This document shows positions 2,656-7,940 of a stretch of 64,000 bases of DNA, in pieces. The DNA is taken from assembly GCF_000316625.1 (NCBI RefSeq), contig NC_019676.1, positions 3,366,501 through 3,430,500 on the forward strand, read 5' to 3'. Source of the stretch: Nostoc sp. PCC 7107. Lineage in GTDB: Bacteria; Cyanobacteriota; Cyanobacteriia; Cyanobacteriales; Nostocaceae. Positions within the stretch are counted from its first letter, which is position 1. Each line of letters opens with the position of its first letter. Position numbers and translations under genes: made by a program. Below the pieces are notes generated by a model. That model ran no database searches, was not told the DNA's origin, and saw nothing but the letters and a program-made list of their open reading frames with translations.

Positions 2656-2914
2656 GGGTATAGGGCGTAGGGTTTTTCTTCGCTACTTCCTATTGCCCAT
2701 TTTCTACTCTCTCATCTATTTTGTTTACACTAGAACTATCCCCAATCTTAAAGTATCGGGCGATCGCTTTCCTTTTTACAACCCAAAAATCTCACCAACT
2801 CCTCTGAAAAGTCAGAGTTAGTTAAATTTTTCAGTAAAGTAAAAGAATATTAATTAAAAATCACATCTTTCCCGACTTTTAATCAAACCTTTTTTGAGTT
2901 TTTCCCAAAAATTA
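2656..2914. other. Spacer between hisG and the sensor kinase, with degenerate G-rich repeats
   Basis: Just after the hisG stop there is an imperfect tandem array of the type GGGGTAT-AGGGGTAT-AGGGCGT-AGGG, a kind of short repeat common between Nostoc genes. A HIP1-like GGGCGATCGC lies near 2759. I see no coding potential and no clear terminator. Confidence 0.4.
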
Positions 2915-5224
2915 ATGCAAGCTGAATCTTATAATCACGAACAGGCGAGGCTAGAAGCTTTGCGCCGATATCATATTTTAGATACTGAACCAGAGCAACC
3001 GTACAACAATCTTGCCCAATTAGCAGCTTTTATTTGTGGTACTTCTATCGCTTTGGTAAATTTCATTGATGAAGACCGTCAATGGTTTAAAGCCAAACTT
3101 GGTATAGATGTGCCAGAAATGCCTCGGAATGTGGGATTATCTTATCTTTGCTTAGAACGCCAGGATATAGTAGTTGTCAAGGATACATTAGAAAACGAAG
3201 AATATGCTGTCAATCCCGCAGTAACCGGCTATCCATACATCCGGTTTTATGCAGGTGTACCTTTGATTTCTCCAGAGGGACAGATATTAGGAACTCTTTG
3301 TGCAATTGACCCAGCACCACGGGAACTAAACCAACAACAAATAGAGGCGCTGTTGGCTTTAGGTCGTCAGGTAATTAGTCAGTTAGAACTGAGGCGGAAT
3401 TTAGCCGAAAGGCAGCAAACTGAGGCGTTTTTACGGGAAAGTGACCAACGGCTGAAGTTAGCTTTGCAGGCGGCTAAACTAGGTTCTTGGCAACTTAACC
3501 TCAAAACATGGGAATTATCAGCTTCTAGTCAGTGCTATGTCAACTTTGGTCTGCCTTCAGAAACTGAGTTCACCTATAATACGCTATTGGAATGTATTCA
3601 TCCTGACGATCGCACTGATATGCAGGAGTGTGTCAGACAAGCAATCAAAAATCACAGCGATTATGAAGCAGAATATCGCTGTATTTGGACTGATAACACT
3701 ATTCATTGGATATTAGCGCGGGGTACTGTCATCTACGATAGTGAGAATCAGCCAATGCGGATGACTGGTGTCACCTTAGATGTGACTGACCGCAAGCAAG
3801 CAGAAGAAGAACTCAAACGGCAGAATTTGCGATCGCAGTTATTCGCTGAAATTACTCTAAAAATTCGAGAATCGTTACAATTAGAAGAAATTCTGCAAAC
3901 GACAGTTCAAGAAGTTCAAAAATTGCTGCACGCTGACCGAGTATTGATTTTTCAGCTTTGGCCTGATGGTTCAGGCACAGTATTAAAAGAAGCCGTTTTA
4001 CCGGGTTGGCCTGTGGTTTTAGGAAAAAACATTCTTGACCCTTGTGTTCAAGCAGACTACGTAGAAAAGTATCGTCAAGGACGCATCAGTGCAATTTTCG
4101 ATATTGAAAAAGCTGATATCCAAGACTGTCATCGAGAATTTCTCCAACAGTTTGGTGTCAAGGCGAACCTCGTAGTCCCAATTCTAATTCGAGATGGGAT
4201 TTGGGGCTTATTGATTGCTCATCAATGCGCTCACCCCCGCCACTGGACAAACTTTGAAACCCAATTATTACTCCAGTTAGCTAATCAAATTGGTATAGCT
4301 TTATCCCAAGCGCAACTTTTAGAACAAGAAACCCGCCATGTTCAAGAGTTAGCACGTTCCAATTCCGAGTTAGAACAGTTTGCTTATGTAGCTTCCCATG
4401 ATTTGCAAGAACCTTTGCGGATGGTGACGAGTTATTTACAACTACTAGAGAGGAAATACAGCAACCAACTAGACTCTACTGCGGATCAGTTTATCAACTA
4501 TGCCGTAGATGGAGCGCGGCGGATGCAAAACCTAATTAACGATTTGTTAAATTATTCACGGGTGACAACTCGCGGACAACCATTTGTGCAAGTTGATTGT
4601 GCAGAAATTTTACAGCAGGCGATCGCTAACCTAAAATTTGCTATAGAAGATAGTGGCGCAGAAATTACATATAATCATCTACCAGTCATCACAGCCGATC
4701 CGATACAATTAACACAAGTCTTGCAAAACCTCATCGGTAACGCCATCAAATTCCGCAGAGAAATACCACCACAGATTCATATTGAGGCTGTCAGAGCAGA
4801 TGAAGTAGGAGAGCAAGCAAGCAAGAGAGAATATACTACTCAACACTCAAAACTCAGCACTCAAAACTCAGCACGGGCTAAACGCCCCGCTACCGCTCTA
4901 AGCGCAGCCATGCCCGCAGGGCTTTACAGCACTCAGCACGGGCTGAACGCCCCGCTACCGCTAACAGCACTCAGCACTCAAAATGAATGGCTATTCTGTG
5001 TAAAAGATAATGGAATTGGCTTAGAACCACAGTACACTGAACGGATTTTTGTTATTTTTCAGCGTTTGCATGGTAGAAGTAAGTATCCAGGTACTGGTAT
5101 TGGTTTAGCAATTTGTAAGAAAATCATAGAACGCCACGGCGGACGTATCTGGGTTGAGTCAGAACCGGGTCAAGGCTCGAACTTCTACTTCACAATTCCA
5201 GATCAAGCAGGTCAACAATCGTGA
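2915..5224 (+). CDS. GAF-PAS-GAF sensor histidine kinase, candidate cyanobacteriochrome
   Basis: A soluble sensor kinase of 769 residues from the ATG at 2915; a TTG at 2894 would add seven. Order: GAF domain (about 20-160), PAS with PAC motif (about 175-300), a phytochrome-like GAF (about 305-463), HisKA with [10 protein letters not shown] (His 495), and HATPase with N box [10 protein letters not shown]1 DNGIGL and G2 GTGIGLAI. The second GAF has DPC at Cys 377 and DCH at Cys 405, 28 residues apart, the arrangement of DXCF-type cyanobacteriochromes. The ATPase domain carries about 60 extra residues between N box and G1, encoded by genomic repeat sequence. Its stop overlaps the GTG of the next gene, an Rcp1-like receiver, which is the likely phosphorylation partner. 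Confidence 0.88.
4802..4984 (+). repeat. In-frame repeat insertion in the kinase ATPase domain
   Basis: This stretch is built from short genomic repeats: ACTCAACACTCAAAACTCAGC-type heptad units and two near-identical 27-bp copies of a block containing AACGCCCCGCTACCGCT, at 4871-4897 and 4936-4962, separated by a different unit containing GCAGCCATGCCCGCAGG. It stays in frame and encodes a Ser/Thr/Gln/Ala-rich segment, unlike conserved ATPase sequence. It lies between the N box and the G1 box. Confidence 0.85.
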
Positions 5225-5667
5225 ATAATAAACCAATAATTATGCCAATTGAGGTTTTGTTAGTCGAAGATAATCCTGGCGATGCTGAACTTACGCGCAT
5301 TGCTCTACAAGATAGCAAAATCTCAATTAACCTAAATATTGTAGAAGATGGCGTAGAGGCAATGGCATTTTTACGTAAACAGGACAGCTATACCAGAAAA
5401 CCCCATCCTGATATTGTCTTGTTGGATTTAAACTTACCCAGAAAAGATGGACGGGAGGTACTCGCAGAAATGAAATCTGACGACCATCTCAAACGAATTC
5501 CCGTCGTTGTGCTGACCACTTCTCAGTCAGAAGAAGATATACTTAAAGCTTATAACTTAGCTGCCAATTGCTATATCACCAAGCCAGTAGATTTTGATCA
5601 ATTCGTTAAAATTGTACAATCCATCGAAAATTTTTGGTTTGCGATCGTAAAACTGCCGCCGGAGTAA
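5221..5667 (+). CDS. Rcp1-like single-domain response regulator
   Basis: A stand-alone receiver of 148 residues, the kind of partner used by cyanobacterial phytochromes (Rcp1 type). It has [14 protein letters not shown] with the acidic pair, phospho-acceptor Asp in [14 protein letters not shown], and the switch residues VLTTS and ITKPVD. There is no output domain, so it probably relays phosphate or signals by protein contact. The GTG at 5221 overlaps the upstream kinase stop as GTGA, which favours translational coupling; an in-frame ATG at 5242 is an alternative start. The next gene begins only 5 bp after its stop, so all three genes look like one operon. Confidence 0.9.
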
Positions 5668-5672
5668 GGGAT

Positions 5673-7940
5673 ATGGCAGGAGAATTAATAAAAGTCTTAT
5701 TAGTGGAAGATAACCCTGGGGATGTTTTTCTCTTACAAGAGTTATTAAGAGAAATTAATACGGTGAAGGTAGAGTTGTGTCCCGTTGAGCAATTGTCAGA
5801 AGCACTCAAGTTGTTAGTATACGATAGTTTTGATTTGATGTTGCTAGACCTGTCTCTACCTGACAGTCAAGGTATTGATACATTTGTTAATGCTGCTCGC
5901 CAAGCAAAAGCTACGCCAATTATTGTGCTAACAGGTTTAGATGACGAAACCCTAGCATTACGCGCTATGCAAGAAGGAGCGCAAGATTATTTAGTCAAAG
6001 GAAAAGTAACTGGTGACTTGTTAGTGCGCTCTATGCGCTACGCTATTGAGCGTCAACGTATCGAGGATGCCCTACGTCAAAGCGAGGAAAGATTTCGCGT
6101 AGCCCTGAAAAATTCACCGATTTTTGTGTTCAATCAAGATAAAGAGTTACGTTACACCTGGGTTTATAACTCTATTTCTGGGTGGACAACACAAGATATG
6201 TTGGGCAAACATGACTCAGAACTGCTCCCAGATGAAGATGCTCAAAATTTGACCACTATTAAAAAAGATGTGCTGACTACAGGTATAGGTACCAGAGCAG
6301 AAGTAGCGTTAACTACTCCTCAAGGCATTCGTTATTATGATTTGACTGTTGAGCCATTGCGGAATGAATCGCAAGATATTGTGGGGATAACTTGCGCTAG
6401 TATCGATATCAGCGAAAACAAACAAGCTGAGGCAAAAATCCGCGAACAAGCCGCATTATTAGACATTACCACCGATGCTATTTGTGTACGCGATTTAGAA
6501 AATAAAATTCTGTTTTGGAACAAAGGTGCGGAAAATCTTTATGGTTGGCAAGCATCAGAGGCTTGGGGTAAAAATGTCAGCGAGTTATTGTTTGATGAAT
6601 CTTGTCCAGAATTTGAAGCAGCTTGGTTAAACGTTATCAGTAAAGGTAAGTGGCAAGGTGAATTAACAAAACGCACTAAAACAGGTAAGGAAGTATTAGT
6701 TGCTAGTCGCTGGAGTTTAGTACGTGATTCCCACGGAAAACCCCAATCAATTCTAACTGTTGATACAGATATTACTGAGAAACAACACTTAGAAGCGCAG
6801 TTATTTCGCGCCCAACGGATGGAAAGCATTGGGACTTTAGCCAGTGGTATCGCCCACGACCTCAACAATATCCTTACGCCGATTTTAGCGGGAGCGCAAC
6901 TATTACCACTGAAATTCCCTGATGCTGATGAGCGAACGCAACATTTGTTAGAAATTTTAGAAATTAATGCCAAACGAGGCGCAGATTTAGTTAAGCAGGT
7001 ACTATCATTTGCGCGGGGTGTAGAAGGTCAACGCATCAATTTGCAACCCAGACACTTAATTGTAGAAGTCGCCAAGATTTTAAAAGAGACTATACCAAAA
7101 TCTATTGAGGTTTGTCTGGACTTATCACCTCACTTGTGGACGGTATCTGGAGATAGTACCCAACTCCATCAAGTGCTGATGAATCTCTGCGTCAACGCCC
7201 GTGATGCCATGCCTGATGGTGGTACTTTAACTATTACGGCTGAAAATTTATTAATTGATGAAAATTATGCCCGAATGAATTTAGATGCCAAAGTCGGCCC
7301 CTATACAGTGATTAGTGTCTGCGATACTGGGATTGGTATTCCCGAAGAAATTTTAGATAGAATTTTTGAGCCATTTTTCACTACTAAAGCAGTAGGACAA
7401 GGTACAGGTTTAGGACTTTCCACGGTTTTGGGAATTGTGAAAAGTCATGGTGGCTTTGTAAGTGTAGAAAGTCAAGTAGCAAATGGTACTTGTTTTAGGG
7501 TTTATTTACCAGCGGTTGGTGAACAGGAAACCTTTTGCCAAGAAGAAATGACACTGCAAGTAGGTCATGGAGAATTAATTTTGATAGTGGATGATGAACC
7601 CTCAATTCAGGAGATTACGAGAACATCTCTAGAAACTCATGACTACAAAACTTTAATTGCTGGTGATGGCATTGAGGCGATCGCTCAATATGCCAAAAAT
7701 GCCGATAAAATTAACGTTGTCCTCATGGATATTATGTTGCCCTCATTAGATGGGGTAACTGCAATCCGTACTTTACAAAAAATAAACCCCCAAGTCAAAG
7801 TTATTGCCACCAGCGGATTCATGCCTAAAGATAAATTGGCAGAAATTATGAAAATTGGGGTCAAGAAATTCTTATCTAAACCCTATACTGTGAATGAATT
7901 ATTGCTGAGTTTGCAAGAGATTCTCAACGAAGATGTTTGA
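5673..7940 (+). CDS. Hybrid histidine kinase, REC-PAS-PAS-HisKA-HATPase-REC
   Basis: A cytoplasmic hybrid kinase of 755 residues. A receiver opens the protein (phospho-Asp 59 in [12 protein letters not shown]), followed by two PAS domains (about 135-250 and 260-375), a HisKA helix with GIAHDLNN (His 395), an HATPase with DTGIGIP and GTGLGLSTV, and a second receiver at the C-terminus with [10 protein letters not shown] and LSKPY. The frame is open from a GTG at 5634, but the ATG at 5673, just behind GGAG and AGGG, gives a protein starting at the receiver and follows the preceding stop by 5 bp. The double receiver and the operon context suggest a multistep phosphorelay with the two upstream genes. 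Confidence 0.9.

Follow-up and report, generated by a model that had tools for sequence, protein, structure and literature searches.

Does the sensor histidine kinase encoded near the start of a 64,000-nucleotide stretch of Nostoc sp. PCC 7107 (NC_019676.1, positions 3,366,501 to 3,430,500; hereafter the window) perceive light, and if so, which kind of photoreceptor is it? An earlier note, made from the letters of this DNA, had proposed the second GAF domain of the kinase (GAF2) as a candidate cyanobacteriochrome of the DXCF (Asp-Xaa-Cys-Phe), or TePixJ, type. We put at roughly three in four the probability that the kinase is a dual-Cys cyanobacteriochrome that senses light through GAF2 and works like a DXCF sensor. 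Homology, the conservation of both cysteines and the conserved three-gene layout lend good support to the core of this reading, in which a two-cysteine cyanobacteriochrome GAF feeds a histidine kinase and an Rcp1-like receiver. Judged from its sequence, the protein is probably a two-cysteine cyanobacteriochrome kinase with a variant Asp-Pro-Cys-Val (DPCV) motif. The two-cysteine site, its spacing and the pairing of kinase and receiver stand, while the motif Phe, replaced by Val, and the TePixJ lineage do not, with GAF2 grouping instead with RcaE. Because these last two features are lacking, we class GAF2 with the dual-Cys cyanobacteriochromes on the RcaE side and not as a strict DXCF member.

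A two-cysteine site in the second GAF domain

Translation of positions 3824-4303 (+) gives an open stretch of 160 residues, 304-463 in ATG numbering, that contains LDPCVQ and QDCHRE. The two cysteines, residues 377 and 405 counted from the ATG and 384 and 412 counted from TTG 2894, stand 28 residues apart in Asp-Pro-Cys-Val and Asp-Cys-His, just as first described, and the same spacing in TePixJ is borne out by Cys494 and Cys522 in PMC6955287. GAF2 thus has the Asp-Xaa before the second Cys and the 28-residue distance to the canonical Cys that mark DXCF domains, and Cys405 (ATG numbering) aligns with the canonical ring-A Cys of solved structures. The fourth motif residue is Val, as the earlier note had also said, and not the Phe of DXCF (Table 1). 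Chance pairing of the cysteines was rejected on the gap-free TePixJ alignment, the genome pattern count and conservation in relatives. The DXCIP type, described in PMC5578081 and PMC6628166 as attaching bilin via the second Cys alone, was set aside because GAF2 has the canonical Cys. The literature searched, mostly free of subscription papers, yielded no use of DXCV, DXCL, DXCM, DXCY or DPCF together with cyanobacteriochrome, used DXCI only in the sense of DXCIP, and showed no paper on this kinase.

The residues around the site also resemble those of a bilin pocket. In a residue table of 14 columns and 62 domains, with beta2 and helix labels that we assigned from the AnPixJ alignment, GAF2 reads Val (beta2), Asp, Pro, Cys, Val, Tyr, Arg, Cys, His, Phe (helix), Asn, Trp, His and Trp, and it has the pocket columns Asp, Cys, Tyr, Arg, Cys-His, Trp and His in common with cyanobacteriochromes. 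At beta2 it has Val, as does TePixJ, and the red/green types have Phe. Phe at the beta2 and helix positions has been tied to teal-type tuning (PMC5240096), so the Val at beta2 argues against a teal-type photoproduct. By analogy, a blue/green or blue/orange cycle appears more likely for GAF2 than a blue/teal one on account of this residue.

Kinship to known cyanobacteriochromes and a possible photocycle

Sequence searches agree with the kinship to cyanobacteriochrome GAF domains that had been proposed. GAF2 matches PF01590, and its best matches among solved structures are cyanobacteriochromes: 8k9o leads (1.8e-43), 7ckv (RcaE), 6oap, 3vv4 (1.5e-32) and other TePixJ entries also score high, miRFP670nano proteins, AnPixJ (3w2z) and relatives of the latter appear further down, and phytochromes rank after the cyanobacteriochromes. 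In the phmmer alignment with 3vv4 (E 1.5e-32), which we take to be TePixJ, DPC falls on DPC and CH on CH without a gap. The top match, 8k9o, is listed as a histidine kinase, and its aligned letters are the same as those of 7ckv over the shared stretch.

Neither of the two closest models fits GAF2 in full. TePixJ (PDB 4fof, 4glq, 6pru) resembles it in the 28-residue spacing of the cysteines, in Asp-Pro-Cys, in Cys-His and in the beta2 Val, but it has the motif Phe where the window has Val, belongs to another branch of the tree described below, and is a methyl-accepting chemotaxis protein, whereas the window protein is a histidine kinase. RcaE (7ckv) shares with GAF2 its side of the tree, and the highest PDB score is that of 8k9o; it differs in having Gln-Glu-Val-Phe at the DXCF site, Cys-Leu for Cys-His and Lys for Asn. 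The architecture of RcaE, a bilin-binding GAF in a PAS-containing histidine kinase, recurs in the window kinase.

A photocycle may be sketched by analogy with DXCF sensors. In PMC6955287, Cys522 of TePixJ holds ring A and Cys494 binds C10, and the DXCF types in PMC4469895 include TePixJ (430/530 nm with phycoviolobilin) and NpF4973 (435/600 nm with phycocyanobilin), the latter a model for a blue/orange photocycle that was compared with GAF2 through this type listing. We infer that Cys405 (ATG numbering) would bind phycocyanobilin at ring A and that, in the dark, Cys377 would add to bilin C10, giving a blue-absorbing state at about 420-440 nm. Blue light would turn C15=C16 from Z to E and break the Cys377 bond, and the photoproduct would absorb green if phycoviolobilin is formed by isomerization, or orange if the pigment stays phycocyanobilin. 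The changed GAF would in turn alter kinase autophosphorylation, and phosphate may pass to the Rcp1-like receiver of the next gene, perhaps also to the two receiver domains of the hybrid kinase.

Conservation and bilin supply

Both cysteines are widely kept among relatives. Nine of 80 loci, belonging to seven Nostoc, one Richelia and one Scytonema, were taken as orthologues on a near full-length kinase match of at least 55%, and all nine have the two cysteines (DPCF in eight, EHCF in one). In the family search, 133 of 145 sampled genomes had a GAF2 match with an E value no higher than 1e-55, some of the matches lying in other, longer proteins. From the matches listed there, 90 relatives (window included), 30 of them given as loci and 60 retrieved, were chosen by similarity to the window, a set that speaks for conservation within the clade and not across all cyanobacteriochromes; every one of them has both cysteines. 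The residue two before the second Cys is Asp in 88 and Glu in two, and the canonical Cys is followed by His in 76 and Tyr in 14. GAF2 is under purifying selection, with a ratio of nonsynonymous to synonymous substitution rates (dN/dS) of 0.083-0.140 in seven Nostoc comparisons, an eighth giving no value.

Similar domains occur elsewhere in the window's own genome, and pigment genes are at hand. Among 90 GAF matches there, a pattern search picks out seven (window included) in which D-x-C precedes a canonical Cys by exactly 28 residues, and an eighth that escaped the pattern was recognized from its sequence and alignment; at the position of the window's Val, all the others of this group carry Phe. 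Yet another domain, g4636386p, has Glu-Gly-Cys-Leu (EGCL) at the same spacing. Bilin could be supplied by one Fe_bilin_red gene (PF05996), coding for a ferredoxin-dependent bilin reductase, and two heme oxygenases (PF01126). As a separate observation, 16 other own GAF domains of the 90 were tabulated, and nine of these have Cys in both columns, among them g4636386p with its EGCL and g5265340p with an odd spacing; several more are of the red/green type, and the set likely consists of photoreceptors.

Points against and alternative readings

Several findings weigh against reading GAF2 as a light sensor of the DXCF kind. Its motif Val recurs in only one other of the 90 relatives; the tree places it with RcaE, a green/red sensor, and not with TePixJ; a paralogue in the same genome has neither cysteine; and among the order-wide loci L010-L038, which are less selected, 19 of 29 have both cysteines and 10 are without one or both.

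The first of these points concerns the chemistry of the second Cys. Of the 90 relatives, 87 have Phe as their fourth motif residue, one has Leu and two have Val, namely the window and its nearest relative, L191 (genome G168, of the same genus). The two are 99% identical, and the shared Val makes a sequencing error unlikely; its codon is GTT in the window versus TTT or TTC in eight named orthologues. Val might hinder the bond between Cys377 and C10, leaving bilin attached via Cys405 in a single-Cys sensor whose dark state absorbs at longer wavelengths, or in a leaky two-Cys one. Besides the prevalence of Phe, this would be in line with the listing of the motif Phe as one of four residues with a possible constraining effect on the bilin (PMC5240096) and with the lack of a second Cys in RcaE, which shares GAF2's side of the tree. 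Yet insert-Cys cyanobacteriochromes with Leu at this place photoconvert via a second-Cys bond, their second Cys lying elsewhere (PMC5240096), Leu occurs beside both cysteines in two relatives (L274, EPCL; L012, DPCL), and GAF2, under purifying selection, is 88-91% identical to the Phe-bearing loci L039-L045. We therefore hold a hindered Cys377 to be unlikely; the Val beside the second Cys is probably tolerated.

The second point concerns descent. We built a maximum likelihood tree of 62 domains, keeping the motif columns and rooting it for drawing only; seven PDB sequences served as named references, and the other rows came from the window genome, loci L039-L047 and further genomes. One split (97/96) sets the window clade, RcaE and RcaE-like rows on one side and TePixJ, AnPixJ, Slr1393 (presumably PDB 5dfx), 6bhn, 6oap and 6mgh on the other. 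For approximately unbiased (AU) tests, eight of the 62 rows were dropped (five flagged as long, three of our own choosing), and the p values are rough because the groups were defined after the first tree had been viewed and the motif columns were kept. A clade of the window group with TePixJ but without the RcaE-like rows was rejected (p-AU 5.3e-4), as was a single clade of 36 two-cysteine rows listed by us (2.1e-7), a list that leaves own_g4636386p (EGCL) outside. On the tree and the AU test, a TePixJ lineage for GAF2 was rejected. According to PMC11284453, domains of the DXCF type are found in a variety of lineages and are believed to date from an early stage of cyanobacteriochrome evolution, which fits the tree; a TePixJ lineage is therefore no strict requirement for a DXCF domain.

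This grouping, with its split and AU value, and RcaE as best PDB match might instead suggest that GAF2 senses green and red light protochromically, as RcaE and CcaS do. The residues of the RcaE protochromic triad, which we take to be Glu217, Leu249 and Lys261 (positions placed by count), argue otherwise: in the alignment GAF2 has Pro, His and Asn at these columns and so does not look RcaE-type, and it possesses the second Cys that RcaE is without. An RcaE-type protochromic site was rejected on the triad columns, and we regard the green/red reading as highly improbable. As a side observation, L280 (= L025:1984-2463:-), L281 and L287 combine a second Cys (DECF, EECF, DDCF) with Cys-Leu and the RcaE-type Lys, and L280 and L281 also carry the RcaE-type Glu; of the three, L025 (L280) is the one placed in the tree, where it sorts with RcaE. 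It is conceivable, though we put it forward only tentatively, that the window GAF2 is part of a two-cysteine clade that is closely akin to the protochromic RcaE sensors and present in most sampled family genomes, that L025/L280, L281 and L287 form a living series between two-cysteine blue and green/red sensors, and that DPCV shows how the second Cys can outlast the motif Phe.

The paralogue raises the further question of whether GAF2 senses anything at all. It is a REC-PAS-PAS-GAF kinase (L187:1633-4116 (+); G000 3319132-3321615) adjoining an Rcp1-like receiver gene, and in its match (G000 3319933-3321294) Ala replaces the canonical Cys and Thr the second one, so that such an architecture can persist without bilin. 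GAF2 might likewise have become a structural or dimerizing domain only. Its two cysteines and pocket residues are retained, however, and its dN/dS is low, and we consider a loss of light sensing very unlikely. The same paralogue bears on the argument that a receiver of the type used by phytochromes points to light input, which proved weak. Among the five Rcp1-like receivers of the genome with E below 1e-20, two adjoin PAS-GAF-PHY phytochromes and one is the window's, but one adjoins a REC-HisKA-HATPase kinase without GAF and one the paralogous kinase lacking both cysteines. With such partners, an Rcp1-like receiver was rejected as proof of light input.

Significance

If the dual-Cys sensor works as proposed, the cluster would be a probable blue-light phosphorelay, with close kin of its sensor domain in 133 of 145 sampled family genomes, some of them in other, longer proteins. 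GAF2 would also serve as a natural experiment on exchanging Phe for Val in the DXCF motif, Phe being kept in all close relatives but one, and its place beside RcaE bears on the origin of green/red colour sensing.

Gene cluster and domain organization

The kinase gene is followed by those of the receiver and a hybrid kinase (Table 1), in the same order and on the same strand in all nine orthologous loci examined. The receiver has 148 amino acids; its gene may start at a GTG that gives a 4-base overlap with the end of the kinase gene, and its stop lies 5 bases upstream of the hybrid kinase ATG. Together with the Pfam and PDB matches (E 3.1e-42 against 1jlk, Rcp1), this layout upholds the proposed pairing of a GAF kinase with an Rcp1-like receiver, whose phospho-acceptor, Asp69 at 5425-5427, was located by the LLDLNL motif. 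Cph1/Rcp1-type pairs of phytochrome and receiver have a receiver like the window's, which matches Rcp1 and RcpA; unlike the Cph1 type, the window kinase has no PHY domain, and its bilin site would be a stand-alone GAF after PAS.

Table 1. Positions, within the window, of the three genes and of the domains and motifs of the kinase.
Feature	Position	Strand	Basis or detail
Sensor histidine kinase, GAF1-PAS-GAF2-HisKA-HATPase	2894..5224	+	Open reading frame and Pfam
GAF1	3005..3373	+	PF01590 match, converted from genome coordinates
PAS_3 domain	3515..3772	+	Pfam
GAF2, dual-Cys cyanobacteriochrome-type	3824..4303	+	PDB matches, residue table, relatives
Asp-Pro-Cys-Val in the DXCF motif position	4037..4048	+	Second Cys codon 4043-4045, Val codon GTT 4046-4048
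Canonical chromophore Cys, then His	4127..4132	+	Cys codon 4127-4129; translation and residue table
HisKA with motif SHDLQEPL	4370..4567	+	Pfam; motif position
Low-complexity insert, in frame, inside HATPase domain	4796..4984	+	Orthologue comparison, TRF
Rcp1-like single-domain receiver	5221..5667	+	Pfam Response_reg; PDB 5te9, 1jlk (Rcp1), 1k68 (RcpA)
Hybrid kinase REC-PAS-PAS-HisKA-HATPase-REC, third gene of the cluster	5673..7940	+	Pfam

The kinase starts at TTG 2894 or at ATG 2915, seven codons later, and ends with TGA 5222-5224; counted from the TTG, its frame has 776 amino acids. Its best-segment identity to the Nostoc loci L039-L045 is 81-88%, and Pfam recognizes GAF (best stretch 330-470), PAS_3, HisKA and HATPase_c. 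Inspection of GAF1 by eye revealed no cyanobacteriochrome-type motif. Neither kinase nor receiver had an above-cut-off match among the best 25 of 81 NCBIfam rows each, and a scan for promoters and terminators brought out nothing that stood apart, with 17 promoter-like sites versus 11.8 (standard deviation 3.3) in shuffles.

The insert at 4796-4984 (+) contains 7-base repeats of the ACTCAGC type and is flanked by the N box and the DNGIGL box. Its sequence and length differ strongly among the Nostoc orthologues, and L047 is without it. In one relative, a match to the first part of the kinase, query residues 3-195 (G094:C18:121381-121959), contains a TAA.
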